Positions 9,873 through 37,613 of a stretch of DNA of 64,000 nt are shown here, in pieces (position 1 is the first letter of the stretch; each line of letters begins with the position of its first letter). Source of the DNA: Collinsella sp. TF08-11AT (lineage in GTDB: Bacteria > Actinomycetota > Coriobacteriia > Coriobacteriales > Coriobacteriaceae); contig NZ_QSRL01000009.1 of the NCBI RefSeq assembly GCF_003437035.1, positions 27,453 to 91,452 of the forward strand, written 5' to 3'. The translations under genes and the position numbers were made by a program. The notes below the pieces were generated by a model. That model was not told the DNA's origin. It worked only from the letters and a program-made list of their open reading frames with translations, and made no database searches.

Positions 9873-11768
9873 TCACGAGCAAATACCACACTCCCCCGCC
9901 GCGCCCTCACGCGCGGCATATTCGTTGAGATACTTCACCGGAATCGGCCACCTGGAAGGAGCCCCGTGGCGCGAAAGCCCCTCATTGACCAGCTGAACCA
10001 GCAGCTCGGACAGATCGTCGCCTTCGAGCACCTCGACCGAGCGCACATGAATCGACGTTGCCAGATCCTCCTTGGTGCCGTTGTTGACGCCCACAAAGTA
10101 GCAGGTCAACCCTGCACGTTCAAACGTTCCAATACCGTAATAGGGCGAGTTGTAGCTCTCGAAAAACTCCTTCTTACGACCCGCCTTACCCGTAAGCTGG
10201 TAATCGCGCACCAAGGTCACAAAAGTGTTGGAGAAGGTCGTCAAGCCCGTGTCCCGCACGCGTGCCAACATAGATCGTTCGCCTGCCCGCACGTCAAAGA
10301 TGTAGGCATCCTTGTCGAGTTTGCCGTCCGACGTCAGCAGTTCAAGCTCCATCTCGTCCACAGGACCGTCCTCGATGGGATGCGAGGTGTAGTCCATGGT
10401 CCCGTCGACACCAATCGTTAGCGTTGCGAGGCGTTCATCCAGCTCAACCTTATCCTTCTCCTTGCGCGGGACATTGACCACGCCACAGACCGTCACCGAC
10501 CCAACGCCAAAAGAGCCAAGGTCAAACGCCTTCACCCGGCCGTCGGCAACATCCTGCTTAACCAACAGCTCTTTGAGCATGGCGCCCAGGATTCCCTCCT
10601 GTGCGCCGCACACCTTTGCATTCGACGCCGCCTTAAACAGCGGCTCGCACACGTCCGGCGTCACATGCTGCTCAACCACGCCAGCGTGCAGGGCATAGCC
10701 ATCGTTCTCGGCGACCTCGTTGGGCACCATGACGATATTCCACGCCAGCGGATCCACATCCTTCCCGCCATACGACGCGCACACGCCCCACGAGGAATCG
10801 TTGAGTCGATCGACCAACTGGCGCGCCACCCCAGCAAGCCCTTTGTGCGCAAACGACACCACAACCCGCTGTCCCACCGCGCGCTCCGCAACCACGCGGG
10901 CATATCGCTCGCTTTTCAATACCTCGTAGAAGCTCTTGCGCGGATACTCCCTGAGCGACACCCGGGCAAAGTCGCCGTACCGGCGCTCGAGGATCTGCAG
11001 CTCTCGGTACAGGATGCCCTTCTTGGTATAGGCGACCTTTTCCGCTTGGGCCGAAAACGTAAGATCACGGCGCTTGGACGGCTTATCGCCCTTGGCGCGG
11101 CGCAGGATGTACTCGTCACGTTGTCCGTGAGCCAGCACCACCGAAGCCACGGGCGACAGCCTGTAACCAACCTGGCTGTTAATCTTCTCGAGCTCCTTCT
11201 TGTCGCCTGCCGCACGACCGATGAGCACCCGTCGCTTGGTAAACGTTCGGATCTTAAGTTCGAAGGTGCAATCCTCGTTGATAACGGTCTCGACCGTCTC
11301 AATCTTGGCAGGGCCCGTTCCAGCTTCCTCAATGGCGTCGCGGCGAGCACCCTTGGCGCTTACAACATACAAGTGCCCCGTATCATTGGGAATCTCGTCC
11401 TCGATCCCCTCAAATTGCGAGCACGAGTTGAACAGCAGACGCAATGCGATGTAATCATCCAGCTCGTTCCAATGAGTTTTAATCGGAACCATTTGCTCAT
11501 GGTCGAGCGAAGCGCTCAGGTCACCCGTCTGCGCGCCCGCCTTGACCATCAGAAAGACGCGGTTGTCCTCGAGCTGCGTAAGCGCGACGACCTTACCTGT
11601 CTGGCACACATCGGCCATAAAGTTTGCCACGGCATGCTTGTCCGCATCGCCGACGTTGCACCAAAAGACCGAGTAGCGCTTCTCGGCAGCCGCGGCATCG
11701 AGCTGCAATACGAGCTCGGACACAGCGATGTCTCCCAGACCACACGGCTGGTTATGCTTCGATTGCAC
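9873..11768 (-). CDS. Unknown 631-aa protein, PIWI-like C-terminus possible
   Basis: Last gene of the leftward operon A. It starts with GTG inside the end of the helicase gene (17-nt overlap), with GGAGG 9 nt upstream, so translation is coupled. I recognise no family with confidence. Weak hints point to an Argonaute-like fold: a middle part with WNIVMVPNEVAEND and VVEQHVTPD, a strand LTIGVDGT, and a C-terminal end RWPIPVKYLNEYA that resembles the last helix of PIWI domains. No RNase H-type catalytic tetrad can be assigned. Its fixed position behind a helicase-nuclease recalls PIWI-RE operons, but that is inference. Confidence 0.8.
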   Translation of the reverse strand: MQSKHNQPCGLGDIAVSELVLQLDAAAAEKRYSVFWCNVGDADKHAVANFMADVCQTGKVVALTQLEDNRVFLMVKAGAQTGDLSASLDHEQMVPIKTHWNELDDYIALRLLFNSCSQFEGIEDEIPNDTGHLYVVSAKGARRDAIEEAGTGPAKIETVETVINEDCTFELKIRTFTKRRVLIGRAAGDKKELEKINSQVGYRLSPVASVVLAHGQRDEYILRRAKGDKPSKRRDLTFSAQAEKVAYTKKGILYRELQILERRYGDFARVSLREYPRKSFYEVLKSERYARVVAERAVGQRVVVSFAHKGLAGVARQLVDRLNDSSWGVCASYGGKDVDPLAWNIVMVPNEVAENDGYALHAGVVEQHVTPDVCEPLFKAASNAKVCGAQEGILGAMLKELLVKQDVADGRVKAFDLGSFGVGSVTVCGVVNVPRKEKDKVELDERLATLTIGVDGTMDYTSHPIEDGPVDEMELELLTSDGKLDKDAYIFDVRAGERSMLARVRDTGLTTFSNTFVTLVRDYQLTGKAGRKKEFFESYNSPYYGIGTFERAGLTCYFVGVNNGTKEDLATSIHVRSVEVLEGDDLSELLVQLVNEGLSRHGAPSRWPIPVKYLNEYAAREGAAGECGICS

Positions 11769-14700
11769 GGCCGATCGCCTCCATCATCTCCAGGTTGATT
11801 GCTCCATCAGTTGCCATATAGGGGAAGGAGAACACCATCCCCTCGTCATCGATTGGCTTTTGGCGGAGCTCCAGCGCCGCCTCGTCAGCCAAAACATTGA
11901 CGATCAGCAGCCGCTTCGCCCCGACTTTTTGAGCCTTTGCCTTAAAGCGCTCTGCGTCCGTAGTCTCGCCGCCGGAGCGCCTGTAGGCCTCGTAGGCGCC
12001 GATGCGATAGTGCTTAAAATCGATCCACACGCCGGTCTTGTTGCCAGCGGCATCGAGCACCTCAAAATCGCCGCCCGTCTCGGCATGGGCTGCATCGCCA
12101 CGAGTAAGCGAATAGCGACCGTCGTAATACGCCTCGAAGATGGCCCTGCCGGCAGACTCTCCCAGTTCTCCCAGGTATACCGCCTGAAACATATAGGGTG
12201 TCATATGTGCCGTCGCCGCCGGCTGCAGCGTCGCGGGCACCCCGTCGCGTGACCAGCGCTCGCGCACCTCGCGAATCGAAAGCAGCTCGGGTACGCGCGC
12301 CGCCGCTTGGCTTATCTGACGAACCGTCGCGCCCTTTAATCCCTTGTCGTAGCGGCAACATTCCTCCAGGCGAGCGGCAATCTGCTCAACAGGCTCGCCA
12401 TCGTAGCTGGGAAATTCAAAATGCGGCACCTTACACGCTCCGCCCTGCGCATACGCATAGCCACTCGCGGCAAACGGCATGTGCAGTGCGGTGCTTTTGC
12501 GTGCAGGATAGCTCGCAAGCTCCTCCCACGGCAGGCAAAAATGATGCAGATAAAAATTGCGCTCGTCATCGAAAGCGGCCAGATCTTCCTCGCGCGCATC
12601 GAGCGAGGCAACCTTCCACGCCAGCTTTTCGTGCTTCTCTTTCGCCAGGTTGTTCCTAAAGGCAGCAAGGTTCTGCTGCTTACTGGCAGCGTGCTGCTTC
12701 TTGTCCGCCATGTGATTGTTGACGGCCGCACAGGCGCCAACCACCTGCTCCAGCTCGTAGCCCATCGGCAAATCGTGCAAGAACGAAAAATCGCAATCGG
12801 CGGCGATTTCGCGATCGAGCATTACCTGCACATGGAGCATCTTTACGCTCGTACGCATCAAGCGGCCCACCGCCTGCGCCACGATGCGAGCGCCTTCGAC
12901 CTGGTACGAGAGGGTGTCGCGCACCGGCAGTTTTCCGCCGGCGCCCGCCAGTACCGTGCGCACACGATGGCGCTTCTGGATAAACGGAATCTCACCGCGC
13001 GTCACGAGCTCCTCCTGTTCGACCACGCCAAGCAGCGCCTGCTGGTCAAACTTCTTTGAGCTCATATCGACTCCCCAAGCCAAGCGGCTCGTGGGCGACT
13101 CCACGTACAGAAAATCGAGGTCCATCTTGGGATGTCGCCCATCGTTGCCAAAACCACAATCGACCTGGCGCACCGTGTTGCGCAGGCTCTCCGGCACCTC
13201 GTATTTAAGGTTCTTGGAAAAGCCACCAGCGGCAAGGTTGATAAACATCAGGGTCGGCTCTCCGTCCTTCAGACGTTCCTGAGCGCCGTGCCAACCTTCC
13301 TCCCATCCCGCAGCGTTAAAGCACGGCACCATATCCTTTGCCTCCTCGAGCGACTTCTCGTACGAAGCCTCGGGATGCTTAACGTTCCTAATCACCAGTT
13401 CGGCAACGATTTCGCGGGCAAGATCCAGCGCCAAACTATTAAAGTCGCCATGGTTTCCCATGTGTCGTGTCGTAAAGATGGCTCCCGCCTGCTGCTCACT
13501 GCGCGCCACGCCACGCGCCCAGGCGCTCACGGCAACGAGCGTCTTGCTCAGACGCTTTAGTTCAAACTCGATGCTTTCGGCATCGCTCGTGGTCACCCTG
13601 TCGGCAATCTTTCGGCGCAGGCACGCCGCAAGCCCTTCGCTCACGCCAATCTGGTCAAAGAATCCCATCACATGCTCGTACACCTCGTCGGGCGACACGA
13701 TACCGCCGCCATAGGCGCCGCCGGCCACGGCCGCCATGCCGGCAAGCTTCTTGGACTCGTCAACCCAAACGACGTCGACGGCGTACATCGTTGCCGCCTG
13801 CTTGTTGAACAGCCTGGTCTGCCGCACGATCTCCTGGTTGAGCTCGCCAATCCAGGCATCTTTACGAACCACGCCATGCACTTCGTCCAGGTAATCCAGG
13901 TCAAAGTTCTTAATAGTCGGTGCATTCCAGGTGGCGCTCATGCACACACAGGGAGCCTTGGCGGCAATGGATGCCAGATACGCCTCGGGCATGCGCTCAA
14001 TGCCGTGATTAGTCAGGTACGTGGTAAACATATGGTCGATGGTGGTTTCCATCACCAGGTAGTCAACACCACGCGCATACATCGAGTCGTCAACGGCATC
14101 GATTTCATCGTTCTTGCGGTCCTTAAAGAACAGCGCCAGCATCAACGAATTCCAGAAGTATTTCTCGTTGGTCTGGTCGTTCCTAATGCCCAGGGCATCG
14201 ATGATATTCTTGCGCGAAAGATCGTCCTTGTACGAAATGCTGCCGTAGTACAGCTTGTCCATAAGCGTGGCACAGCGGGCAAGATGGCCCACCACCATCC
14301 TGACAAGGCCGCGCGCACGGCGCACCGCCTTATTGACGGTCTGCTGCTCGTCCGTCCCACAAGACGTAATCATGTTGCGGTTGCGGCGAGTATCGAGCTC
14401 ATAGCGCAAGGGATTCGACAGGCCATCGCCCACCGAAATATCGTCGCTGCCAAACAGATGACGACCGGCAAGCTGCTCGTCTTTCGCCTTGTCAGACAGG
14501 GCAAAAGGCTGCTGCAGCTCCATATCCTGAATACACGCAGCGATCATCTTTTGAATACGCTTGGCACCCTTGGCGATCTCTTCGGCAGCCGTCTCCACAC
14601 TTGCGCGCGAAACCTTGCCCGTTGCCGCGTTTGACCCCTCGTGCTCGCCCGAGGTCGAGGCATGCGTATAGACCGCCATCCACTGGTCCCGATTTCCCAG

Positions 14701-15685
14701 CAGCAGAGGATCAACCACGCCGCCATTAAAATGACGGTCAAGAATACGCAGCATCTCGTCGGGCTGAAATTTCATATGTCCCGCCGCCAGCATCGACAGC
14801 ATATCGGCCTTCGCATGGTCGATCTCGTCAAAGATAAACAGGCATTCGTCGGCAACCGCTGCGTTAAAGAACACAACGCCCGCTTCTGTCACCGTATCGA
14901 TTCTATTGACGAGCTTTTGCGGCGTGCATGCAATTACATGCGGCGCGCGCTTATCGTTAAGCAATGCCGAGGGCCAAATCCGGGGAATCTCCTCAATGCC
15001 ACGCGTGATGCTCTGGCGTCCACGGCTCACCGCTCGACGCAAGCTCGCGTCTGCCAACGCCAGCTTATCCCACAGCCCTGGAGTCAGGCGGTCGACAACG
15101 CTTCCCAGACGCTCCTTCTTGTCCAAAAGGCCCAAAAGGTCATCGGCGACCTCCATCACACCGCGCCACGCGTGCGCAATATCGCGAAGAACGGCCTCGT
15201 CCTTTGCTCCAAAGGGGCATGGAATATCGCGCGGCCTTACGCTGCCCTTGTCAAACGTGGCGTCAATCCAGTTTTTGATGTTCTCGCCCGCTCGCGGAAG
15301 ATCGAACACCATGCGCTCCGCATCATCGTCACTCATGCCCTGCTCAACCAACAATTCGCGCACGTTTGCAACATAGTTGTCGCGGTTGTCCTTACCCGGA
15401 ACCACAAACACCAGAGTACGGCGACCGGGACATTTATTAAAACAGCCCGACTCATCCCAGCCGCCGGCAATCAGGTCTGCCGTGACCTGCTCGGCCGTGT
15501 AGTTTTTACCCGAGCCCGTTGTGGCGCCCAAAAAGTACAGGCCGTTGTTGTCCTGATCCTTGGGGACAAACAGCGCACGCTCAAAAAAACTCGCGCATCG
15601 CCTTTTGGCGCGCAAGATAGGGAGAAAGCTCCTTGTCGCCCGCAGACGACGGATTCGATTGACAGTTCAGCTCCCACGTAGCCAT
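11752..15685 (-). CDS. SF2 helicase fused to PD-(D/E)xK nuclease, frameshifted
   Basis: If read through one frameshift, this is a 1310-residue protein. It has Walker A GATTGSGK (K60), motif II FDEID, motif III SAT (CMSATWN) and motif VI QAVGRLMRT, which place it in helicase superfamily 2, DinG/DEAD-like. The C-terminus has a restriction-endonuclease pattern, GGDFEV (D1206) then WIDFKHY (D1222, K1224), followed by the strand RLLIVNVL. The natural start is ATG 15685, with GGAGG upstream; its frame stops after 34 codons at a run of seven T (15583-15589). Removing one T joins it exactly (MREFF-ERALF) to the long frame. It overlaps the next gene by 17 nt. Confidence 0.82.
15583..15589 (-). other. 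Seven-T frameshift point in helicase gene
   Basis: On the coding strand GAG is followed by seven T and then GAGCG. Six T would keep frame; seven give an immediate TGA. Phase-variable length change, transcriptional slippage, +1 ribosomal shift, mutation or sequencing error are all possible. Confidence 0.75.
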
Positions 15686-15814
15686 GGTCAAACCTCCGAT
15701 TTAGTTGTTGCATGTGTTGAATACCATCCCGTGCGGACAAAAACTCACGCAGGGCGGCTGAGCGATGGCATCTATGCCGCTTGAGAAAAGAAAGGAAAGA
15801 GAAGCAGTCGGCGA

Positions 15815-17584
15815 CTACTCGCACGAAGCGAGCAGCTTCTCAAGATCGCATTCCAACGCCTCGCGCTCCTCAGCGTCGATCACCGCGAGGGCGACACGCA
15901 TCAGGGACACATCGGCGGCAAGCTCCTTTACCTGGTCGGGACGCTTGCTAAAGTGGTCGTAAATCCGCAGGGCCTCCCCGGCCGCCAGGTACTGCCACTT
16001 TTCCAACGAAGGCTTTTCGGACCTGCTCATGGCATCGACCCACTCGCCAAGACCCTGAAAACCGTTGCCCGTAGTCGTGCCGTTCATAACCACATCGAGC
16101 GGGCTCAGCAAGCAATCGGGCGATTTTTTGTACACCAATTTGGTGAGCGTAAGCACCTGAGCAAGGTTGCGATACTGTTCCTTGTCGGCATAGAGCACGT
16201 CGTTGTAGCAGGCGCACGCCTTAAGCAGCTCGTGGGCGGCAATGCGCTCCGGCCCATCAAACGGAACGCCGCGCAACAACACCCCAGCAAGATCGAATGC
16301 CTTGCCGCCCTGCACGATCTTGTCGAGCGCCGAACCGTCCACCAAATCCGCCAGCCAAGCAAACTCAGGCTGATACGGCTTATGCTCGTCCTCGTCCTCA
16401 TGCTCCATCCAGTCGCTTACCAACGCCAGGGCTTCAATCTCTCTCCCGTTCAGAAAGGGCGAATTCTCCCCCATCTCTTCCTGCAAAAAGCCCCGCGGCT
16501 CATGAGAGCGCTCGTACGCAACCGCAAGTTCCCCGTCGCTCACGACCAAGGTCGCACGGGAAATATAGGTATCTTCCCGCATGTCCCTCCAGGCGTACAT
16601 CATAAGGGGACGCAGTTGACGGAGCATGCCGCGCGCGCCGGCACCTTCCTTAACCGCGCGCTTCGCCGCAAGGCGAGCAGCATCTGCCATCAGCTCCATC
16701 TTGGCGCCATTTCCCATCATGTTGTTGTACTTGGGCAGGTACTGTTCATACGCAATCTGGACCAGATCGTCCACGCTCAAGGCGTTAAAGTTAATCACCG
16801 AGCCAATGCGCCCGCACAGCTCGGACATAATACCCCAAGTCTCAACATCCTCGATGGTCGCACTGTCTCGCAGCTCGTTTGCCGATTTTGCGGCGGTGCA
16901 CACGGCGGCATACGAGGATCCGAAGCCGACCGTGGTGCCAGACTTGTCACTCAGGCGCTTGCGCACCAGAGCATCCAAGCCCATAAAGGCGCCGCCCAAA
17001 ATGCAAACAACCTGATCGAGGTTGAGCGTCTTAATGGCCGCACTCTTGGAGGTATCGCATTCAAACGGCATCTCCCCGCCTTCCAAGAGCTTAAGGAACG
17101 ACTGCGATGGACTAAAGCTTGATGCAACTTCGCCCCCATCGGGCTCGGCACGAACTGCCTTGTCAAACTCGTCAAAGAGCACCAAACAGATATCGCCGGG
17201 ATTGGCAGCCTGATAGTCCGCGACCTGCGACAGGCAGTTGCTCATGCTGGCACCGCGCCAGCCCTCGCCCGTCATGGTGGAGACATCGAACACAAACAGC
17301 TTGAGCCCCGCGGCATCCGCCACGGCCTTGATGGTGTGGGTCTTTCCCGTGCCAGTGGAGCCCATCACCAAAATGGCAGCGGGCGAAAGAACGTCGCGCG
17401 GGTCGGCGCCGCGTGCCAACATCACGCAGCGGTTGACCTCAAAGCTCAGCGCCGTCACAAAGGCCTCCAAGCTTCCTTCGTGGCCAATAACACTCTGACG
17501 CGTCTGCTCCACCAGACGCGTAGGCGCAATTCGATTGAGCAAGTCCTGGTAGCGATCGATGTTTCGATACTGCTTCTGAGTCAT
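15815..17584 (-). CDS. ClpX-like AAA+ unfoldase with ClpP-docking loop
   Basis: A 589-residue AAA+ ATPase clearly homologous to ClpX but without its N-terminal zinc domain. Walker A is GSTGTGKT (75-82), Walker B FDEFD (137-141), and sensor-2 GARG (316-319). The pore loop GYVG of ClpX is replaced by GWRG (108-111), keeping an aromatic residue. ILGGAFMGLD aligns with ClpX ICGGAFAGLD. The next loop reads TTVGFGSS (V219-G220-F221), matching the ClpX IGF loop that docks on ClpP. About 250 extra C-terminal residues are unlike ClpX and may choose substrates. ATG 17584 has AAAGGAAGG upstream. A ClpP is encoded at 32729-33331. Confidence 0.88.
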   Translation of the reverse strand: MTQKQYRNIDRYQDLLNRIAPTRLVEQTRQSVIGHEGSLEAFVTALSFEVNRCVMLARGADPRDVLSPAAILVMGSTGTGKTHTIKAVADAAGLKLFVFDVSTMTGEGWRGASMSNCLSQVADYQAANPGDICLVLFDEFDKAVRAEPDGGEVASSFSPSQSFLKLLEGGEMPFECDTSKSAAIKTLNLDQVVCILGGAFMGLDALVRKRLSDKSGTTVGFGSSYAAVCTAAKSANELRDSATIEDVETWGIMSELCGRIGSVINFNALSVDDLVQIAYEQYLPKYNNMMGNGAKMELMADAARLAAKRAVKEGAGARGMLRQLRPLMMYAWRDMREDTYISRATLVVSDGELAVAYERSHEPRGFLQEEMGENSPFLNGREIEALALVSDWMEHEDEDEHKPYQPEFAWLADLVDGSALDKIVQGGKAFDLAGVLLRGVPFDGPERIAAHELLKACACYNDVLYADKEQYRNLAQVLTLTKLVYKKSPDCLLSPLDVVMNGTTTGNGFQGLGEWVDAMSRSEKPSLEKWQYLAAGEALRIYDHFSKRPDQVKELAADVSLMRVALAVIDAEEREALECDLEKLLASCE

Positions 17585-17644
17585 GGGCGCCTTCCTTTCC
17601 ATATTGGTTTTCTTTCCTTCGATGTGGGCCGAGCCCTTAAACCA

Positions 17645-17851: not shown

Positions 17852-17895
17852 GGTCGTTCCTTTCTTCATGCGAGATATTTGGATTGCGTTGTGGG

Positions 17896-18633: not shown

Positions 18634-18656
18634 TAGCTGTCCTTTCGTTGCTGAAA

Positions 18657-18711
18657 CAACTAGTTGGTTTATCCACTGTAGCTTGATACAACTAGGAGAT
18701 ATGCAAATCTC
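18657..18711. promoter_or_regulatory. Palindromes between divergent operon A and M-S gene
   Basis: The perfect palindrome CAACTAGTTG (18657-18666) is followed by a half copy CAACTAG (18689-18695) and an inverted repeat GAGAT-atgcaa-ATCTC (18696-18711). All lie just upstream of the leftward operon start, in an AT-rich divergent region (18634-18902). They are candidate operators for a shared regulator; the methylase-specificity protein transcribed to the right is one possibility. Confidence 0.45.
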
Positions 18712-18902
18712 TTAGTGTTAGTATCTAGCGAAATATTACCCAATGCGTACGGCCTCATACGCACCATTCGATTTTTTTCTTTTTCATTTGAGTGCCCCGT
18801 CTGAAAAACGCCGCAACTGCTCTTCTTGTAGACTGAAGGCAATTGAGCCGCGACGGGCCAGTCAGCGAACCGCGCAATATAGGGAATATGCAGGAGGTGC
18901 GC

Positions 18903-20546
18903 ATGCTCAAAACTAAAGCAGAATTTGCAACTCTTCGCTTAAACGAAGATCTCAAGCCATATATGAGCCGATATCTATCGGATCTTGTGTCTCATATGGT
19001 CGAGAAATATCAGCCTTCGTCGAGAACGAAAAGGCTCATTGAACTGTGCTGTCGCGATTTTGAGTTTTCGAGCGAGCACGTCGATGGCCCCTCGTGGTCT
19101 GTTTTGGGGATTGACCTCAAGCGACCTTCGGCCGCCTCGTTTGAGTTTGAGGACCGCGTTTACAACGAAGCAACCGACGAATGGGATTATGTGCCCGCTT
19201 GCGTTTGCAAAAACCGAGTCAAAGTCCCGACGTCGACGTTTACTGCCATCGAGGAGAATATCTTTTTATACGACTACGAGCAGGACGCAGCCTCTCACAC
19301 GTACGAATCAGCACTCATTTACTGCAGGCCCCCCGAGCTACGACCGCTATCCCAATTCCCGGCATCTATCGATGCGGCAAATGCGCGAGTCCTGGATTTC
19401 CTCAGAACGCGCTCGAAGCAGCTGCAACGCAGCGCAGGCATCCCCGATCTGCTTTCGGTCACTGAGTGGTACTACATCTTTCTTGCGGCATCCATTGCCT
19501 GCTCTCAGTCCCATGCCACGGCCGTCATTCAGATTTCGGACCGTCTGTTCAATCTGGCGCGAGCCGTAGATGGACGTCGCCTTCTTTGTGACCTCGGCCT
19601 GCTAAAGAGCATTGTGCTTCTTCCCAACACCATTGCCAAAAAGGCCGAGGGTCGCGCGCTGCTCTTTATTGGCGACGGCGAGCCCAATGATCCGTATTTC
19701 CTTTTTGACGGCAGGAGCTTTGACGACAAGCAAATGACCGATGAGATTCTGCACCAGCTCCTCGATTCCGTCGACCGAGCCTACGGCGATCAAAAGAATC
19801 CAGTCTATTGGCATCGGCTCGAGGATCAGGGCAACGGCATATATCCCCTATTACCCAATACAAAGAGCGGATCGTTCGACGAGAGAATGTTCATCCCCCT
19901 TGGGTCGCTAGCGCCAATCTACCGCGGCACCGCCCGCAGCGTTGTAACCAAACTGCCCGAATCAGATCCGACAGACAGTTACCAACAGCACGACTGCTAC
20001 TACCTGTCGCTAAAGCATCTTCATGATGGCGCAATCATTGCCGCAGAAGATGTACTTGAGCGTGTCCCCGATACAGATATCTACGATGTAAGCCGTGTAG
20101 ACTACGAAGATTTTCGGAAGGCCAAACCGATCGACGCCCGCGAGGCGAGCCTTCTCATATCACGCGTCGGGCCTCCATTCAAGCTTGCCCTCATCACGCC
20201 AGGCCACTTTTCTGTCGGTTCTGAGCGCGCCGTGGAGCGCGGTCTTTTGTTTGAGAGCATTGTCCCCTGCGACGCCATGTTCTGCGCTACCTTTGAGGAC
20301 GAGCTGCTTGCCCAGTTTGTCCTGGCATACCTGTCGTCCGATGAGGGGCAGAAGAAACTGGCGGACACCTCGCACGGAGACGCGCTTGTGCAACTTGCCC
20401 CAATGGACCTGCGAAGCATGACCGTGCCTGTTCCCGGGCGAGCGGAGCAGGAGCGCTACGCGCTAGAGTACGAAGCAAAGCAGCGCGCCTACGAGGACGC
20501 CCTTAAGCAGGCGGAACATTACGCTGCGAGCAAGGGAACGATGTAG
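18903..20546 (+). CDS. Degenerate type I methylase-specificity fusion, copy 1
   Basis: A 547-residue protein. The first half resembles the later part of type I N6-adenine methylase (HsdM): SHATAVIQISDRLFNLA...LGLLKSIVLLPN matches the HsdM strand-helix-strand after motif IV. However, no NPPY/NPPF motif IV and no proper SAM-binding motif I remain, although LIELCCRDFEF...GIDLKRPS may be its remnant. The second half looks like a specificity subunit (target-recognition region, then EQERYALEYEAKQRAYEDAL coiled coil). It is probably a DNA-binding protein rather than an active methylase. ATG 18903 has AGGAGG 6 nt upstream. It is divergent from operon A and paralogous to 36177-37613. Confidence 0.72.
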   Translation: MLKTKAEFATLRLNEDLKPYMSRYLSDLVSHMVEKYQPSSRTKRLIELCCRDFEFSSEHVDGPSWSVLGIDLKRPSAASFEFEDRVYNEATDEWDYVPACVCKNRVKVPTSTFTAIEENIFLYDYEQDAASHTYESALIYCRPPELRPLSQFPASIDAANARVLDFLRTRSKQLQRSAGIPDLLSVTEWYYIFLAASIACSQSHATAVIQISDRLFNLARAVDGRRLLCDLGLLKSIVLLPNTIAKKAEGRALLFIGDGEPNDPYFLFDGRSFDDKQMTDEILHQLLDSVDRAYGDQKNPVYWHRLEDQGNGIYPLLPNTKSGSFDERMFIPLGSLAPIYRGTARSVVTKLPESDPTDSYQQHDCYYLSLKHLHDGAIIAAEDVLERVPDTDIYDVSRVDYEDFRKAKPIDAREASLLISRVGPPFKLALITPGHFSVGSERAVERGLLFESIVPCDAMFCATFEDELLAQFVLAYLSSDEGQKKLADTSHGDALVQLAPMDLRSMTVPVPGRAEQERYALEYEAKQRAYEDALKQAEHYAASKGTM

Positions 20547-28688: not shown

Positions 28689-28798
28689 GATTAGCACAAC
28701 TCGTATACGACGTAATGACTGTTAGGGCGCACTCGCAGCAAACTTGAATCACCTTGATTGGCAACCTCGAGCAGAGCCGAAGGCGACCGAATGCATCC

Positions 28799-28826
28799 TT
28801 GTTTTTATTCATTGGCGAGCTACAAT
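28799..28826 (+). promoter_or_regulatory. Candidate promoter of the restriction gene
   Basis: TTGTTT (28799-28804) and TACAAT (28821-28826) with a 16-bp spacer, about 52 bp before the predicted transcription entry into the EcoRV-like gene. The leader between the -10 and the ATG at 28885 is AT-rich with only a weak AGAGA ribosome site, which would keep nuclease expression low. Confidence 0.45.
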
Positions 28827-28884
28827 CAACGCAAACCGACCCATCGATATTTCTCTGCAGGCATCGATTGAAATAGAGACAACA

Positions 28885-29718: not shown

Positions 29719-29842
29719 CGGCTATTAGGAGAAAAGTGGACGAAGGAAAGGGAAACACGAGATTAAAGGTGGACTAGGGGACGTTATTCCATCTACTTCT
29801 ATATCATCATTTCCAGCACATGAACCAAGTAAGAGTTATTTC

Positions 29843-30676
29843 TTAGGCCTTCACGAGAAGCGCTTCGATCATTGAATTGCGTAAGCTCTGCTTCGAGCCG
29901 ACGTGATAAAAATGGGAGAATTCAAAGCACTCAAAATCACTCCAACAGTTTTCAATATGCTCATTCACCCTGTACTTATTCTCTTTCCACATGGAAAGAT
30001 AGACATCCGCCTGAGTCGCATGAGCAGCATCAGCCAGAGCAACAGCTTCAGACTCTGGCCATTCACCCACATAATTTGTATCGCGGCCGATATAAGGAGG
30101 GTCGAGATAAACACAGTCGCCTTTTCTTGGCGCCCGCATAATCTCTTTCCAATCGCAAGATTTGAACTCCCAGTCTTTGCCTTCCATGGCAGCCTGCACC
30201 CTATCAATCTGATTGCATATCTTAGTTATATACGACCTGGAAAAACGCTCGGGCTTCTTGCAAAATGGAACGTTAAACATCCCGCTCCTATTGAAACGCA
30301 TAACGCCGTTAAAACAGGACCTATTTAAGAAGATAAAGTCATACGGTGAATGACTTGTATTGAATCTGTCCCTTACCTCGTAGTAGTATTCCGCTCCACC
30401 AGTACGCAACATCACAGATTCGCGTTCAAGGTATTCCCGCATAGACTCTGATGTTATTTCATGCCGCTGCACGCTTCTATAAAAATCAATAATGTGTTGA
30501 TTGCGATCACCGACCACCGCTCTCTGTGGACAAACGTTAAATAGCACAACCCCGCTCCCCAAAAACGGCTCGTACCATATCCCCTGCTGCTTATCCCAGT
30601 TTATTGTCTCCTCAATGAAGGGGACTAGCTTCGTTTTAATTCCCTGGCATTTAATGGGGGGAACAATTACCGACAT
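29843..30676 (-). CDS. EcoRV-type DNA adenine methyltransferase
   Basis: A 277-residue Dam-family N6-adenine methylase: SAM-binding motif I EPFLGSG (about 36-42), FIFLNRSCFNGVMRFN, and the catalytic DPPY in VYLDPPYIGRDTNYVG. M.EcoRV belongs to this alpha-class, so this enzyme should protect the GATATC sites cut by the converging nuclease. Starts are TTG 30679 or ATG 30676; GGAGG lies 4 nt before the ATG. It is separated from the HNH gene by a 295-base AT-rich gap, so probably has its own promoter. Confidence 0.92.
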   Translation of the reverse strand: MSVIVPPIKCQGIKTKLVPFIEETINWDKQQGIWYEPFLGSGVVLFNVCPQRAVVGDRNQHIIDFYRSVQRHEITSESMREYLERESVMLRTGGAEYYYEVRDRFNTSHSPYDFIFLNRSCFNGVMRFNRSGMFNVPFCKKPERFSRSYITKICNQIDRVQAAMEGKDWEFKSCDWKEIMRAPRKGDCVYLDPPYIGRDTNYVGEWPESEAVALADAAHATQADVYLSMWKENKYRVNEHIENCWSDFECFEFSHFYHVGSKQSLRNSMIEALLVKA

Positions 30677-30971
30677 CAAACCTCCGATGCGCCGTCCATG
30701 TTCAGACTCAAGGATTTTAGTTTAGACGCTAGCTGGGACACAACACACGTTGCGCACATCAATATCCCTTTCCTCAACCCAAGAATCGGCAGCGAAGCAT
30801 GGCACGCACCCCCATATCCATCGTTAAGCCAAATAAAGCCAATACTCTTCGAAAATCATTCCTAATAATTAATAACGACCCTCAAATACTAAAAATGTCT
30901 CCGGATAACGAGGACGCTTAAGCAACGTCTTAACAACAATCGCTTTCAACTCGGGCTTTCCATACGGACCC
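30677..30971. other. AT-rich gap upstream of the methylase
   Basis: No recognised gene lies in these 295 bases. One minus-strand frame ending with TAA at 30869-30871 encodes PYGKPELKAIVVKTLLKRPR and more, about 35-45 residues, starting within the end of the HNH gene; it has no good start and may be a remnant. Promoter signals for the methylase should be here but none is clear. Confidence 0.4.
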
Positions 30972-31748
30972 CTACCCCTTAAACACCATATCGTTGTGAT
31001 ATTCAATAAACTCAGCTCTTGGGGCGAATCGTTTCGGAAGCGTAATCGGCTCTCCGTTGTAGCGCCACAAGTACTCGTCCTCAGGAGTTTCGTGCTCGAC
31101 CACGCTAGACACCACTATCTTTAGGTCCTTCGTAATGGTGATTAGTCCCCGGTCGAACGCTTTATCGTGCAATGCGTTCAAAAGCAAGCCGTTGTCGGGC
31201 GCGAGTCGCTCCGTCTTTGGATCAGAGACTTTCCAGGGCTTGATATGGCTAGCAACCAACAGAGCCTTGTTCGTTAGCCCCGTCAAGCAGCATCTTGAAT
31301 CGTAATTGACGAGCAGGGTATTTCGAAAGAACTCCTGGTTCACCCGCATCGAAACAATTGCCTCGCGCTCCTTGCCCTCTGGCAAATCAAAGCCGATCGT
31401 CTCTTTCAGCTCATCACTTAGCGGTTCTTTAAAATCGAAACGGTTGAGGAAAACCTCAGTCGCCTCCTCGACAAGCTCATCACCAGCAGAGGAATACTCA
31501 GCCCAAACCATCTTGTCCATTTTGCTTGCATGGGTCATTCCAACCTTGCCGCGAGCACGTCGACGCTCATCGAATGATGCAAGGTTCCAGATTTTTAGAG
31601 CAACCGCGCCCGGCGTTCTGCCAATGGCCTTAGCTAGCGCCTGGACATCCTCGTTTGTATCATCAACCTTTTTCGATGGTAGGGCGAGGTACAGAAACAG
31701 AGCCGCAAGGGTTTCTTCCCTCGACCATTTGCTTCCACGACCAGCCAT
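30972..31748 (-). CDS. HNH endonuclease
   Basis: This 258-residue protein has an N-terminal helix-turn-helix-like part (WSREETLAALFLYLALPSKK, then IGRTPGAVALKIWNLASFD) and a C-terminal HNH nuclease domain. The HNH segment reads SRCCLTGL, LVASHIKPW, LAPDNGLLLNALHDKAFDRG, with the metal-binding His/Asn residues in place. Related proteins are stand-alone restriction-like nucleases. GAGGAG precedes ATG 31748. It follows the unknown gene at 31827 by 78 bp and is probably the last gene of operon B. Confidence 0.85.
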   Translation of the reverse strand: MAGRGSKWSREETLAALFLYLALPSKKVDDTNEDVQALAKAIGRTPGAVALKIWNLASFDERRRARGKVGMTHASKMDKMVWAEYSSAGDELVEEATEVFLNRFDFKEPLSDELKETIGFDLPEGKEREAIVSMRVNQEFFRNTLLVNYDSRCCLTGLTNKALLVASHIKPWKVSDPKTERLAPDNGLLLNALHDKAFDRGLITITKDLKIVVSSVVEHETPEDEYLWRYNGEPITLPKRFAPRAEFIEYHNDMVFKG

Positions 31749-31826
31749 GATTGCTCCTCGCCCGCGCACCGCTCACGTAATAGGTCCAGGATAATCCCGC
31801 GGGGGACCGCGGCCGCCGCCTTTTTC

Positions 31827-32654
31827 TCATTCGTCGGTGAATGATTGAAACAACGGCACCTCCCTGCGCTCCTCATACCCTCGCTCAAGTTTCTTCCCAA
31901 GCTCGGCAGCGCAGCGCTTCGTTTCCTTAGAAAACAGGTCATCGATAGCCCTGTCGATTCGCGTGCAAGTCTGCCGGTGCTCGTTCTTCCAGGGCAGGTT
32001 GAGTCCCAAACTCGCATCCCAATAGCCGCCGAGTTTGGCGTTGATCACTTCCTCGGGATACAGCACGTCGCGGCGAATCCCTTCGATCGCCTCGTCCTCG
32101 TCCATATCACAGGCTGTCTCGCCCTGCACGAGGCACTTGCGCAGCTCCTTTTGCGCCCGGATGCTGTTCAGCATGCGAACGCACACCACGGCCAAAAAGC
32201 GGTAGCGCTCGCACAGGTCCCACTCGCCGCCGAGCCATACGCGATAGCCCAGCATTTCGCTCGCGGACTCATCATCCATCAAGATCAATTCCCACGGACG
32301 TACTTTGGCGAGCACATCCTCACCTAGCATTTGAACGCCGCCGCGTGTAAAGATGCACGGCTCCACGTCGTAATAGCCAAAGCCGTGGCCTGCACCACGA
32401 CGATTGATGACGTGCTTGGGCAGCAGGACGATATTGTCGCTGGGCTCGGGGTCAACCTTGCGCAGCTTTTTGACCTTGCGGCGGGCGCGCTTTAAGCTGC
32501 GCTCGTTATCGACACGGCCGCGGCCGTCCGGCTTGCCGCCGTATCGCAGGGCAACCTCGCGCGCCAGGATCTTTGTGTCCGCAGCGCACAGCAGGTCGCT
32601 CACGGTGGGCAGGTCTTCCCACTCAATGCCGTCGACATCCCAAATCCTGCTCAT
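31827..32654 (-). CDS. Unknown charged protein in operon B
   Basis: A 275-residue soluble protein. The start MSRIWDVDGIEWEDLPTVSD and a basic stretch (RSLKRARRKVKKLRK, about 54-68) suggest contact with nucleic acid. The middle contains ILMDDESASEMLGYRVWLGG, and the tail is rich in Lys, Arg and Glu. I do not recognise the family. ATG 32654 (AGAGG upstream) is preferred over an upstream TTG. It lies 74 bp after clpP and 78 bp before the HNH gene. Confidence 0.65.
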   Translation of the reverse strand: MSRIWDVDGIEWEDLPTVSDLLCAADTKILAREVALRYGGKPDGRGRVDNERSLKRARRKVKKLRKVDPEPSDNIVLLPKHVINRRGAGHGFGYYDVEPCIFTRGGVQMLGEDVLAKVRPWELILMDDESASEMLGYRVWLGGEWDLCERYRFLAVVCVRMLNSIRAQKELRKCLVQGETACDMDEDEAIEGIRRDVLYPEEVINAKLGGYWDASLGLNLPWKNEHRQTCTRIDRAIDDLFSKETKRCAAELGKKLERGYEERREVPLFQSFTDE

Positions 32655-32728
32655 GTTCAACCTCTTTCTGGCCGTTAAACTACGCGATCGTTCGCCCCGC
32701 TCTATATGCCCACAAGATATGAGCCCCG

Positions 32729-33331
32729 CTAGAGCGCCTTCTTACTCGGAGCAATCGCCTCGTCCACCAGACCCAACTCCAGAGCGCGCCTGGCGTTGCA
32801 CCAGCAGTCGCGCTCGGTGAGCTCGTGGAACTCCTGGGCGCTCAGGTTGCCATGCTCGGCCAGCAGCTCGTCCAGCTCGGCGCGCATGGCCGCCGTGTGC
32901 TGGGCCACGATCTCGATATCGGTCTGCTGCGCCATGCCCGTGCCGCCCATCAACTGGTGGATGAGCACTTGCGTGTGGCGGTATACCTGGCGGTGGTCGC
33001 CGCAGGCCAAGATCACCGCGGCCATCGAGGCCACGACGCCCTCGCCCACCGTGATCACGGGGCAGTCGAGCGACTGCATGGTGTCGATGAGCGCCAGCCC
33101 CGCCGTAACGCTACCGCCCGGGCTGTTGATGATGAGGGTGATGGGCTCGGTGGCGCTCTGATGCTCCAACACCAGCATGGACTTAATAAGGCCATTGCAG
33201 GTCACATCTTTGACCTCGCCTTCCAGCAGCAGCACGCGGCTGTTAAGCAGCTCACTTGCCATATCGACGGCGGCAACGCGACCGTCCTTGGACTTCTTGA
33301 TAATGCTAGGCTCACGATACATAACGGACAT
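32729..33331 (-). CDS. ClpP-like serine protease subunit
   Basis: A 200-residue ClpP homologue with an apparently intact triad: Ser102 in VVASMAAVILACG, His125 in VLIHQLMGG and Asp175 in ERDCW. The INSPGGSVTAGLA oxyanion segment and the closing GLVDEAI are also typical. ClpP forms tetradecameric chambers fed by ClpX or ClpA. It is unusual that this copy lies in an operon with a VirD4-like ATPase, far from any housekeeping clpX. The ClpX-like gene at 15815-17584 is the obvious partner by its retained docking loop. Its divergence from housekeeping ClpP (e.g. MAAVILACG for MGAFLLAAG) suggests a dedicated protease. Confidence 0.9.
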   Translation of the reverse strand: MSVMYREPSIIKKSKDGRVAAVDMASELLNSRVLLLEGEVKDVTCNGLIKSMLVLEHQSATEPITLIINSPGGSVTAGLALIDTMQSLDCPVITVGEGVVASMAAVILACGDHRQVYRHTQVLIHQLMGGTGMAQQTDIEIVAQHTAAMRAELDELLAEHGNLSAQEFHELTERDCWCNARRALELGLVDEAIAPSKKAL

Positions 33332-33445: not shown

Positions 33446-34930
33446 CTAATCCCTCAGCCACTTGGCCGCATTGGGATGGTCGCCGCAAAAATACTTCTTG
33501 GCACGGAAGGGGCGCATGCCGGTTACTTTGACCAGGCAGTCGGTACGCGGCATAAGCCCCACCTCGCCCGGGGTTATCACGCAACCGCGCACATCGACGG
33601 CAGTACGCTCGGCGCCCACGTAATTGGTGCCCAGAACCGACTCGCCGCACAGATTGCTTATGTACTCCTGTGTCGCGATGTTGCTGCCGCCGCCCATATA
33701 GATCAAGCTGTCGCAGTTATCGAGGATGGTAAGCGCTGCGGATTTGCCGTACGCACCATCGAGCTGACTCAGCGATTGCGCGCACATCAAAAAGCTAATG
33801 CCACGGCTGCGCACGGTCGCAATACTCCGCTCAAAATCGGGAATGCGGCCCACGTTGGGAAACTCATCCAGAATAAAGTGCACGTGGCGCTGCAAATGCC
33901 CGCTGGGGTTGGAATCAGCGCGGCGCTGGGCCAGGTTAAACAGCTGCTTAAGGGCAACGTTCGCAAGCCATGCATTGGTCGAGTCGTTGTCGCTCACCTT
34001 AAGATCGATTACGCGCTTGCCCTCGTCGATACGGTCGAGGCGCATCTCGTCTTTCTCAAAGACGCGCATGAGCTGGGGGGTCTTAAGCCGCGAGATGGTC
34101 GCGTTAAGCGTGATCAGAATGCTCTTAAGCGTTCTATCGGCTGCCCCGCGAAAATCACGATACTGTTCAACGCCATACAGGTCCGCGTTCGCAGAATCAT
34201 ACTTGCCAAGAAATTCCTTGGACTCCACCTGCTCCACAAGGTGATCCAGCGGAAATCGTCCCTCGCCATCTCCCGTAACCTTGATGAGTGCCGCCAGCTT
34301 AAAGACGTTGTTCATCTTAAGATAGCGTCGCGGAGCTGCGGGATCCCCGTCCGGCGCAAATGTGCCGGCAAGGCACTCTAAGAGGAACAGGATTCCAATA
34401 ATCGCTCGAAGTAGCAGATCGCTCGCATTGTCCCAAAACGGATCGTCCCTAAAGCTACGCCTGTCAGGATCGACCCCCTCCATGATTGACGCCACTGTGG
34501 TGGGGATATCCTCGACATCCATCACGTAGCGCAAAGGATCGTACCCGGACGACTGCTCGGGATTGATGGTGTCGAGAACCGTTACCTCGTAGCCGTCCTC
34601 CTCGAAGCCCTTCCCCGTACGGCGCAGCAGCTCGCCCTTGGTGTCCGTGACCACATAGCAGCACTCGTGGTGATTGAGCAGGTTGGGCAAAATGAAACTC
34701 GCCGTTTTGCCGCTGCCGGTACCGCCAAAGGCAAACACATTGTTGGACACGCTCGTCTCCCAGTGCTTGTCGCCCTCGTAGAAAGCCACCGTGGCACCTT
34801 GCGCCAAGATCACATCGCGCTGCTCATCGCCGGATGACAGCGTCTGCATTTCCTCCTTGGTCGCCCACTTCTTGGTCTGATACTCCGTTTGCTGCGCGGC
34901 CTCGTAGCCGTACATCTTAATGACCGACAT
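33446..34930 (-). CDS. Soluble VirD4/TraG-like coupling ATPase
   Basis: A 494-residue T-DNA-motor ATPase of the VirD4/TraG family, closest in pattern to the CD1115-type coupling proteins of integrative elements. Walker A is GGTGSGKT (69-76), followed by FILPNLLNHHECCYVVTDTKG; Walker B is FILDEFPNVGRIPDF, then SIATVRSRGISFLMCAQSLS. Unlike normal coupling proteins it begins directly with the cytosolic part (YQTKKWATKEEM) and has no transmembrane helices. No relaxase or mating-pair genes are present, so a role outside conjugation is likely, perhaps as a DNA-pumping hexamer. ATG 34930 has GAAAGGGG upstream. Confidence 0.9.
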   Translation of the reverse strand: MSVIKMYGYEAAQQTEYQTKKWATKEEMQTLSSGDEQRDVILAQGATVAFYEGDKHWETSVSNNVFAFGGTGSGKTASFILPNLLNHHECCYVVTDTKGELLRRTGKGFEEDGYEVTVLDTINPEQSSGYDPLRYVMDVEDIPTTVASIMEGVDPDRRSFRDDPFWDNASDLLLRAIIGILFLLECLAGTFAPDGDPAAPRRYLKMNNVFKLAALIKVTGDGEGRFPLDHLVEQVESKEFLGKYDSANADLYGVEQYRDFRGAADRTLKSILITLNATISRLKTPQLMRVFEKDEMRLDRIDEGKRVIDLKVSDNDSTNAWLANVALKQLFNLAQRRADSNPSGHLQRHVHFILDEFPNVGRIPDFERSIATVRSRGISFLMCAQSLSQLDGAYGKSAALTILDNCDSLIYMGGGSNIATQEYISNLCGESVLGTNYVGAERTAVDVRGCVITPGEVGLMPRTDCLVKVTGMRPFRAKKYFCGDHPNAAKWLRD

Positions 34931-34968
34931 TGCACGGCCCCTTTCTTGTCGATAGTTCTGCGTGATTG

Positions 34969-35886
34969 CTAGGAAATACGGTCGACGTCTGCGCCCTCCT
35001 TGGGGCTCGTCGCACACGGCAACTTGACCGCACCGTCAATCAGACGCTCGGTTTGCGCCACATAGCTCTCGCGCGCCGCGATTGAGACTGACCCGTCGCG
35101 CAGATATGCAAGCAATGCATCAATCATCAGCTTGTCGAGCAGGCCATACTCTTTGGCCTGAGCGAAGTTGAGGGTGTAGCGGTCCTGGAGCTCCCGTACC
35201 TTAGTTGCCAAATCGATTTCCATCTTTTCCTCCATGCAATAAAAGTTCTCCCGATTGTCCGAAAGAGCCTCAAACGGGCGTTTGACGCATAGCTCAAAGT
35301 TGAAACGCGGACTGGTATCGAATACGTGTCTCTGCACCTTGAGATAGCGCTTATAAAACATGACGGCATCGTCCTCGTCCGCCGTAAAACCGCGCGACCC
35401 ATCGCGATGCACGTGGTCGCAGGGTCTTTTGTAGTCAATGCTTCGCACAAAGCGAGACAGAATATATCCACCTTGTTCAGACGAGTACTTCATACCTGTC
35501 GTAACCTGCTCGAACATGCGCACACCGCTCGACTTAAAGCGCGGATTGCTTCCGTGCTCAAACATGCCAATTAAGATGGCCATGCAGTGCGCGCAGTTAT
35601 CGCGCTGGGGAAAATACAGCGACAACAAAGCGAGCGACGCTGCGGCCAAAAGCTCGCGGGCCTCGTGCACATCGTCTCGATACTGCTCGGGCACCAGCCC
35701 GGGAATATCGGGCGAGTGCTTTTCCAGCACGTCAACGAGTGCCTTGGCCAAGCGCTCGGTATCCTGCTCGCCGCAGTACGGATACGGAAACGGCATCTCT
35801 GCCTTCCCGTTCTTTTTGCACATGCTGCGGAGATCTTCGTCGATCGTGTTGAGGAACACCTCGTAAATGCTGTCTTCATTCTTCAT
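34969..35886 (-). CDS. Unknown protein heading operon B
   Basis: This 305-residue soluble protein starts MKNEDSIYEVFLNTIDEDLR and includes LLAAASLALLSLYFPQRDNC, four-Cys-containing stretches (CAHCM) and MFYKRYLKVQRHVF. It has no membrane segment or catalytic motif I recognise. AGGAAG precedes the ATG. It is directly upstream of the VirD4-like gene (38-bp gap) and is probably an accessory subunit or adaptor of that ATPase. Confidence 0.7.
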   Translation of the reverse strand: MKNEDSIYEVFLNTIDEDLRSMCKKNGKAEMPFPYPYCGEQDTERLAKALVDVLEKHSPDIPGLVPEQYRDDVHEARELLAAASLALLSLYFPQRDNCAHCMAILIGMFEHGSNPRFKSSGVRMFEQVTTGMKYSSEQGGYILSRFVRSIDYKRPCDHVHRDGSRGFTADEDDAVMFYKRYLKVQRHVFDTSPRFNFELCVKRPFEALSDNRENFYCMEEKMEIDLATKVRELQDRYTLNFAQAKEYGLLDKLMIDALLAYLRDGSVSIAARESYVAQTERLIDGAVKLPCATSPKEGADVDRIS

Positions 35887-36006
35887 GAATGCTTCTTCCT
35901 ATCCGGTTGCGGATGTTTGTCGATAAGTCTGTTCTATGTTTTAGAATGGTCTGAGGCATGGACGATGACAATCGACCTAACCTGTAGCTTCGTTAGTGAA
36001 ATCACC

Positions 36007-36112
36007 CTGCTTGATAGCGCAGTTTACCTAAAGGCTGTGTAGCGATTGCATCAAGCAGTTTGTATTGAGTTGGTTTTGGATTACTTCGAGAATAGCACAG
36101 TGCTCTGTTCTC
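36007..36112. promoter_or_regulatory. Inverted repeats between divergent operon B and M-S gene
   Basis: The 290-base AT-rich gap 35887-36176 holds two dyads. CTGCTTGAT (36007-36015) pairs with ATCAAGCAG (36050-36058). Farther right, AGCAC-A-GTGCT (36094-36104) is a perfect palindrome framed by GAGAA (36088-36092) and TTCTC (36108-36112). Both are good operator candidates. A TAATAT -10-like hexamer lies at 36141-36146 before the rightward gene, without a convincing -35. Confidence 0.5.
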
Positions 36113-36176
36113 GTCATTAGAAATTATCAAATTTTTCTGCTAATATATAACCCACTAAGAAGAAAGGGCTCTATAC

Positions 36177-37613
36177 ATGCGTGAAACAACATCATTGCCA
36201 CGTCTCACCGCCGCCGCCCTCTCACGCGCGCTTAATCTGGAGCAGGGCAGCCGTCTACTCACCGTCCGTCTGCCTGGCGCCATCGACTGTAAGGCGCTTC
36301 GTGAATGTTTCAGCCTGAACAGCAACGGCGTACCCGATATTTGCGAGCTTGAACCCGGCAGGCAGGGCGCGGGCAATGGCGATGCGGCTCCGGTGTTTAT
36401 CGACGCATCGGGGTATTACCGTACGGGCAAACACGACATCGAAAAAGAATGTATCGCCTTGATCGATTACTTAGAGCCCGGCTACCTCGATTTCTGTGAC
36501 TGGGGTCCCTTTATTTGGTGTCTGTATGCGCTCGCCCTTTCGAATCGCACTCGCGCAGCCGTAGTGCTGCCCGCCGACCTACTCGATAAAGCCGAGCAGG
36601 CGCGCACGATCCTGATACGCGAAGGACTCATCGAGAGCGTCGTGTATTTGCCACTTTCTGAACCCAGGCCCTACATGACAAGCGCGCTTCTCATATTGTC
36701 TTCAGGAAATCGCAGCGTTGCATTTCGCAGCGCAATCGAATCCGGGCCGCGTTTTCGATATGTGACAGAAACATCGTATTACTCAGATATCACCTTTTCC
36801 ATCTCCCCCGACTGGGCCCGCATTGATACCAATACGCCCAGATCAACGCCTATCGAAACGTCCACTTTTGCCACGCGTGAATTGCTGCTGCATCGCGCAG
36901 CCCTCTCAAAAGGCAAAATCAGCCTTATCAGCCTCACCCGAAACTACAGGGCTACGCTCGGTGACGCTTTTACGCGAGTAGCTCCATTTATGCCCCGCGA
37001 GAGCACCACATCAAACGACATTGATGCAATCGAGGTACGCCGCATCTCATCTCAGGATTTTCAAGATGGCAACCTTCTACCCGCATATGCTGTAGAGAGT
37101 GCAAATAGCTCGGATTCCAAAATCGTAAAGGTGAACCCCAGCGTTCTCGATCGATATGAGCTCCGCGCTGGAGATATCGTCATGCCACGCATGCTGGGTC
37201 GCTACGGCGCGTCCAACCTGCTCGTCGTCAGCGCCGATGACGCGAAGCAACACCTAGTTGCTTCGCATAACACCACCGTCATTCGCCCGTCGTTCCAAAC
37301 GATGACCGAAGAGGAGCGCGTAGTGTTTTCGGAGATAATCGTTGGATACCTTACCGAAGGCCATGGGGCACAGCTGATTCAAGCATTAACCGAAGCAGCC
37401 AGCATCCGCGCCATCCGCCCTAACGACCTGTTCGAGATCGAAGTCCCGCCAGCGCTCGACCCGCGCACGCGCGAGTACAGCGAATCCATCAATCGCTTTG
37501 CCGAGGTCGTAGAAACAAAGAAACAAGCCGAGGCTGCCGTCGCCCAAGCCCAGCGCAACCTCGAAGTCGCAAAAAAGACCATCACCGAAGTGCTCGACCA
37601 AATCTGCGAGTAA
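36177..37613 (+). CDS. Degenerate type I methylase-specificity fusion, copy 2
   Basis: A 478-residue paralogue of the protein at 18903-20546. The first half keeps the HsdM-like element RAAVVLPADLLDKAEQ...LIREGLIESVVYLPL...MTSALLIL but shows neither a SAM-binding motif I nor NPPY. The second half is HsdS-like: LRAGDIVMPRMLGRYG, HLVASHNTTVIRP, and a C-terminal coiled coil (ETKKQAEAAVAQAQRNLEVA). It likely recognises DNA without methylating it. AGAAAGGG precedes the ATG. It is divergent from operon B just as copy 1 is divergent from operon A, which links the two loci. Confidence 0.72.
   Translation: MRETTSLPRLTAAALSRALNLEQGSRLLTVRLPGAIDCKALRECFSLNSNGVPDICELEPGRQGAGNGDAAPVFIDASGYYRTGKHDIEKECIALIDYLEPGYLDFCDWGPFIWCLYALALSNRTRAAVVLPADLLDKAEQARTILIREGLIESVVYLPLSEPRPYMTSALLILSSGNRSVAFRSAIESGPRFRYVTETSYYSDITFSISPDWARIDTNTPRSTPIETSTFATRELLLHRAALSKGKISLISLTRNYRATLGDAFTRVAPFMPRESTTSNDIDAIEVRRISSQDFQDGNLLPAYAVESANSSDSKIVKVNPSVLDRYELRAGDIVMPRMLGRYGASNLLVVSADDAKQHLVASHNTTVIRPSFQTMTEEERVVFSEIIVGYLTEGHGAQLIQALTEAASIRAIRPNDLFEIEVPPALDPRTREYSESINRFAEVVETKKQAEAAVAQAQRNLEVAKKTITEVLDQICE

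Follow-up and report, generated by a model that had tools for sequence, protein, structure and literature searches.

DdmDE, the closest described system, pairs a guide-carrying Argonaute-like protein (DdmE) with a helicase-nuclease (DdmD) against plasmids, as set out in its description (PMC12409362); for ApsAB, a conserved MID motif is reported in ApsB (PMC11096173). Here we refer to a 64,000-nt stretch of Collinsella sp. TF08-11AT (contig NZ_QSRL01000009.1, GCF_003437035.1, positions 27,453–91,452 of the forward strand) as the window, and describe two operons within it. Operon A, leftward between 18633 and 9873, comprises A1, the small A1b, A2, A3 and A4, and faces the rightward gene MSa; operon B runs leftward from 35886, with B1, B2, B3 and B4, and faces MSb. 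It is likely, judging from sequence profiles and structure models, that operon A is a divergent DdmDE anti-plasmid system lying beside a separate VirD4-ClpP module, both in one defence hotspot.

The initial annotation had correctly placed the leftward open reading frames (ORFs) of the two operons, as well as the rightward gene that diverges from each, and regarded the whole as a candidate for one undescribed defence or DNA-processing system. The locus does look like a DNA-targeting defence; however, the core of operon A appears to belong to the described DdmDE family, and operon A is thus not undescribed.

Operon A was found in three relatives: G001, the nearest relative of the window, G029 and G043. 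Together with the window, these make up the four island copies compared. For tblastn of the window genes, stretches of these three genomes and of G019, G028 and G034 were read; the wider sets comprised 43 genus genomes, a 148-genome search, 396 phylum genomes and 84,980 species genomes.

A putative DdmDE pair in operon A

Operon A ends in A3 and A4, a predicted divergent DdmDE pair. DdmE was the sole PDB match of the A4 profile, and the six best Foldseek matches of the A4 model were all DdmE (E 2e-13 to 7e-23), while the A3 profile matched six sequences from DdmD entries (E 2e-20 to 3e-16). Family profiles and motifs agreed on A3 as an SF2 helicase with a PD-(D/E)xK nuclease, as first proposed, and these motifs are invariant across ten homologues. 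The A3 homologues in relatives are about 1310–1316 aa long. The two genes overlap in the window and are adjacent in G001, G029 and G043 (3 of the 3 genomes with both), and in G029 both are open over their full length. The 2023 PADLOC DdmE model made no call on the window's own A4. The initial annotation had named most parts of the locus well, with the exception of A4, listed as a 631-aa unknown, and of A1b, which was left unnamed.

By homology with the solved systems, A4 would carry a short DNA guide and pair with plasmid DNA, and would recruit A3, which would travel along the displaced strand and degrade it. Another feature of DdmDE systems is an inactive PIWI catalytic site.

Accessory genes of operon A

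For the A2 profile, all of the 15 best PDB sequences were those of ClpX, mitochondrial ClpX included (E 4e-22 to 2e-12). The VGFG motif of A2 aligns on the position of the ClpX IGFG loop, which we take to be the loop through which ClpX docks on ClpP. The AAA+ core and the loop alignment agree with the ClpX-like unfoldase proposed in the initial annotation, and the scores lie below the curated NCBIfam clpX cut-offs (109.1 against 359 bits, and 84.6 against 370.75 bits). Probably, A2 feeds proteins into a ClpP by way of this loop. A1 is multi-span by its hydrophobic segments, in line with the membrane protein proposed earlier.

A2 was matched at E 1e-25 or better in 40 of the 148 genomes, and its relatives in G124, G133, G117 and G100 had no other window gene alongside in the stretches read. 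In G029 and G043, the A2 match by tblastn was limited to the last 45 residues, and A1 and MSa had no match in the stretches read, whereas the alignments of A3 and A4 are nearly full-length. Since one lineage (two genomes) lost A2, A1 and A1b and kept a full-length DdmDE pair, we regard these three genes as accessories.

The VirD4-ClpP module of operon B

B2 scored 330.1 bits against NCBIfam NF045973 (CD1115 coupling proteins), above the cut-off of 250. Coupling proteins feature an N-terminal membrane anchor; B2 has no hydrophobic N-terminus, and its only hydrophobic stretch lies at residue 198. The match and the missing N-terminal segment uphold the soluble VirD4-like ATPase of the initial annotation, and a Pfam match with aligned Ser, His and Asp does the same for ClpP (B3). 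The ratio of nonsynonymous to synonymous divergence (dN/dS) indicated strong purifying selection on B2 and B3 (0.04–0.12, with 0.04 for B3). Pairwise dN/dS was 0.04–0.34 wherever synonymous divergence (dS) reached at least 0.089; between the window and G001 it is uninformative for A4 (dS 0.002, ratio 1.00) and for A3 (dS 0).

The 148-genome search gave 27 further VirD4 loci (L007–L033; flanks of at most 1.5 kb; G001, G029 and G043 excluded), L007 and others of which are cut by contig ends. ClpP lies beside VirD4 in 2 of these 27, in G028 and G034, with VirD4 41–42% identical to B2 and the Walker motifs kept at 42% identity. Both also have a B1-like gene; the two are 47% identical to each other and match B1 at 28% (E 2e-8) and at 40% over 40 residues (E 9e-6). 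A faint hhalign match between B1 and the all-alpha domain of the B2 VirD4 (probability 4.5%, E 0.009) is a hint only. A fold assignment for B1 was discarded, the model being of low confidence with a best Foldseek E of 0.78.

The HNH gene, which the initial annotation had counted in operon B, was not matched by tblastn in what was read of the six relatives and thus looks like local cargo; G001 and G029 have a 145-aa gene beside B4 in its place. The HNH gene resembles a phosphorothioate-DNA restriction family, below the cut-off (82.6 against 180 bits).

On sequence grounds, operon B is likely an independent unit, made up of a putative soluble VirD4-like motor akin to conjugation coupling proteins, a helical B1 and ClpP, joined in the majority of copies by an HsdS-like gene. 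That it is instead the remnant of an integrative conjugative element, and not a defence module, seems unlikely to us. B2 does pass the coupling-protein cut-off, and its relatives at about 30% identity are found in 38 phage records and in 2336 plasmid records, of which 1587 are conjugative. However, Pfam detected neither a relaxase nor a VirB4 domain in the island proteins scanned, B2 lacks a membrane anchor, purifying selection on B2 and B3 is strong, and B1, VirD4 and ClpP have been kept together down to about 41% VirD4 identity.

One system or two

The initial annotation took the operons for one modular system split in two, perhaps opened by insertion of the SF1-HEPN/WYL and EcoRV modules. 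A3 was present in 3 of the 43 genus genomes. Operon B with a VirD4 of about 90% identity or more was present in four (G001, G029, G043 and, up to the contig end, G019), and a divergent operon B in two (G028 and G034), both without A3 and neither among the 40 genomes matching A2. G019 was rejected as a case of operon B without operon A, as its contigs end inside the island: one stops shortly after the coiled-coil gene and a second begins within B2. Relative to G001, dS was about 0 for A3 and A4 and about 0.1 for A1 and A2, against 0.25–0.45 for operon B and MSb (AbiEii, 0.17). The near-zero value for the DdmDE pair against that for operon B suggests that the halves recombine separately. The four island copies have three different middles and none has the operons adjacent; with no unsplit copy, insertion into a once contiguous locus finds no support. 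Thus the island is, from these comparisons, a mosaic whose operons A and B appear separable, rather than the split system first suggested.

Several points weigh against this interpretation and against the DdmDE assignment. Identity to DdmE and DdmD is low (13–17% in structure alignments), and the A4 model has a predicted local distance difference test (pLDDT) score of 74. The A3 frame of the window is shifted near its N-terminus, with a one-base homopolymer difference from G001 at window 15580–15690, so the window copy may be inactive or misread; the cause may be sequencing error, decay or phase variation. All three genomes with operon A also have operon B, which descent of one shared island would explain. 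One operon without the other, which as a regular pattern would count against a single system, was seen in two genomes only; both carry the divergent operon B, and the VirD4 frame of G034 holds one stop codon. G029 and G043 are close kin, and the loss of A2 therefore counts as one event. Finally, the role of operon B is a guess: perhaps it interferes with incoming conjugative DNA or the relaxosome, ClpP removing the bound proteins, a possibility we put forward tentatively.

We think it rather improbable that the two operons form one bipartite system, in which DdmDE would destroy plasmid DNA while A2 and B3, as a dedicated protease, would join the VirD4-like motor in acting on that invader, and the DNA between the operons would be inserted cargo. 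Besides the co-occurrence in all three genomes, the ClpP-docking-like loop of A2 and the ClpP of operon B would fit such a system, as would the HsdS-like genes faced by both operons, which share a 77-column stretch, and G039, which holds remnants from both sides. Yet G029 and G043 lost A2 and retain ClpP at 97.5% identity, G028 and G034 carry VirD4-ClpP without A3 or an A2 match, the dS values of the two operons are sharply unequal, and no island copy is unsplit. A layered anti-conjugation defence is likewise doubtful; here DdmDE would destroy plasmids, a decoy of soluble VirD4 and B1 (all-alpha-domain-like) would capture relaxosomes, and ClpP, served by A2 where present, would degrade the captured proteins. 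If true, a coupling protein of conjugation would here be employed against the process itself. We thus retain a divergent DdmDE system beside a separate VirD4-ClpP module as the likely arrangement.

The divergently oriented M-S genes

MSa and MSb had been described as degenerate HsdM-HsdS fusions. Their S half found weak to moderate support, with weak matches to the HsdS target-recognition part in both, a clearer one in the G034 relative (E 6e-11) and a Pfam HsdS-type match of 18.4 bits against a cut-off of 22. The M half was read by eye in the present analysis too; no Pfam methylase match was obtained for the M-S proteins, and hhalign of shallow profiles against one HsdM gave no match, so that this half found no profile support and is a possible degenerate HsdM part at most. 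In the PDB, the MSb profile matched "Esub1" alone (8vsr, 8vsq; E 7e-5), a name not identifiable from the literature. Between the window and G029, residues 161–240 of MSb show 35–40% identity, the other 40-residue blocks 57–95%.

The window and G001 are conserved to just upstream of A1, then diverge through gap A into MSa, dS being 1.64 in MSa and about 0.1 in A1 and A2. Such a joint exchange fits a recognition or regulatory protein moving with its own promoter region, and the most likely role of MSa is that of a regulator or adaptor that binds DNA. Gap B, unlike gap A, is conserved in 5 of the 5 copies compared. G034 has a divergent HsdS-like gene at the MSb position; no HsdS-like gene was matched there in G028 by tblastn. 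The palindromes first reported in both gaps did not rise above chance, the observed inverted-repeat score being at least equalled in 31 of 60 shuffled sequences (first-order Markov) for gap A and 9 of 60 for gap B, and we discarded them as operators.

That the locus represents MADS (methylation-associated defence) is highly improbable, and membership was rejected: both M-S proteins weakly match PADLOC mad5 and MSa matches NCBIfam MAD5, but the latter match reaches 16.5 bits where the cut-off is 400, mad5 matches are common to many ordinary HsdS families, and the mad8 matches of A2 (E 0.005) and B2 (E 1e-5) resemble general ATPase similarity.

Hotspot, island cargo and range

The phosphoesterase gene at 2990 has a counterpart of at least 93% identity in 22 of the 43 genus genomes. 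Leaving aside G001, G043, G019 and G029, 18 genomes were read across the site. Ten are empty, the right flank beginning 1.95–2.16 kb after the phosphoesterase start, and eight are filled, the right flank beginning at 4.1–9.4 kb; no intact operon A or B was found in the 18. The degraded copy in G039 retains most of B4 together with the ends of the coiled-coil gene and of MSa, the genes at the outer edges of the island remain in G006, and the filling of G004 has type IV restriction and PDC-S01-type genes.

The middle of the window holds SF1-HEPN/WYL and EcoRV modules, that of G001 a type II nuclease and methyltransferases, and that of G029 and G043 (99.9% alike) a PDC-S25 gene (SIR2 type by eye) and a Dcm-like gene (by eye). 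G001 and G029 have in common 2.6 kb adjoining operon A (89%) and the region of the 145-aa gene next to operon B (77%); the window middle has 98 bases in common with G029 and nothing with G001. In G001, a 719-aa gene with no family assigned (L035, 6346–8505) adjoins the operon A flank, with 89% DNA identity in G029. The SF1 helicase protein of the window (22770–28371; PADLOC MkoC, E 3e-60) lies beside a WYL gene, and G028 (L044–L045) has a 37% identical protein, also beside a WYL gene, about 9 kb from its VirD4-ClpP. An EcoRV-type restriction enzyme with a D12-class methyltransferase occupies 28744–30679. At the left edge of the island lies a coiled-coil protein with a CAP domain (6056–9535), a relative of which is found beside ClpP in G034, and at the right edge an AbiEii/AbiEi pair (37683–39320); G006 has a truncated AbiEii and AbiEi beside the left-edge genes.

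A pattern-based scan of the contigs of the 84,980 species genomes found three A4 loci, in the same genomes G001, G029 and G043. G001 was also the only one of the 396 phylum genomes with A4, and the only one with a B2-type VirD4 above 300 bits. A4 relatives fell into 122 protein clusters, one named Collinsella aerofaciens, and those of B1 into 182, with 120 among the matches listed. Pattern scans gave no confirmed relatives of A4, B1 or A3 in viral contigs, and there were no plasmid records for A4.

Table 1 Features of the two operons and their divergent genes in the window
Feature	Coordinates	Strand	Basis or remark
A4: DdmE-like Argonaute, 631 aa	9873..11768	-	
A3: DdmD-like SF2 helicase, C-terminal PD-(D/E)xK nuclease	11752..15615	-	family profiles, motifs, lengths, frame
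A2: ClpX-like AAA+ unfoldase, with a C-terminal part without assignment	15815..17602	-	PDB profile matches
A1b: small hydrophobic ORF, 68 aa	17645..17851	-	conserved in G001
A1: membrane protein, 245 aa	17896..18633	-	seven hydrophobic segments over threshold; 94% identity in G001
Divergent gap A	18634..18842	.	swapped jointly with MSa, window against G001
MSa: HsdS-like C-terminus, possible degenerate HsdM part	18843..20546	+	
HNH endonuclease, local cargo rather than operon B member	30972..31769	-	PF13391; PADLOC HNH
B4: 277 aa, conserved in G001, G029 and G043; piece in G039	31827..32660	-	
B3: ClpP peptidase; Ser, His, Asp aligned to ClpP	32729..33331	-	
B2: soluble VirD4-like ATPase, CD1115 family	33446..35017	-	PF02534; NCBIfam NF045973
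B1: helical protein, 305 aa	34969..35886	-	homologues in G028 and G034
Divergent gap B, with conservation across five Collinsella copies	35887..36176	.	
MSb: HsdS-like C-terminus; G034 has a divergent gene in equivalent layout	36177..37613	+	

Comparison with known systems

The operon A pair would mean that Collinsella of the human gut carry a divergent plasmid defence based on an Argonaute. The DdmDE family is known; this divergent form with extra operon genes is new, and no description of the VirD4-ClpP module was found. Family and literature searches with defence terms, from which subscription papers were mostly missing, returned none for VirD4 with ClpP, and no paper for an Argonaute or DdmDE combined with ClpX. 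The ClpX-like unfoldase and the membrane proteins raise the question of proteolysis and membrane location in Argonaute-guided plasmid elimination, and B1-VirD4-ClpP, a conserved cassette, may represent a motor of conjugative origin that has been recruited to defence.

With a ClpXP protease the locus shares the ClpX AAA+ core and loop of A2 and the ClpP of B3; it differs in that A2 lies below the ClpX family cut-offs and has its own C-terminal part, and in that ClpP is encoded in the other operon. B2 is over the cut-off of the CD1115 (VirD4-like) coupling proteins, and differs from them in having no N-terminal membrane segment and in adjoining ClpP and B1, with no transfer genes among the scanned island proteins. 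The HsdS-like part of the M-S proteins recalls type I restriction (HsdM/HsdS) and MAD5 of MADS; however, no HsdR gene was recognised beside the M-S genes and their M part was not confirmed, and MSa is far below the MAD5 cut-off.

ApsAB shares with the operon A pair a wide family, in which a helicase-nuclease goes with an Argonaute-like protein, and ApsAB is reported to have anti-plasmid activity (PMC11096173). A4 may differ from ApsB in that its matches are to DdmE. From DdmDE of Vibrio cholerae and Lactobacillus casei the pair differs in its low sequence identity, and the locus adds an upstream ClpX-like unfoldase and membrane proteins as well as the HsdS-like gene facing operon A; the two-component description mentions none of these in its accessible part (PMC12409362). 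It is nevertheless DdmDE that operon A most resembles, with a helicase-nuclease adjoining a long Argonaute-like protein and with fold and motifs in agreement.

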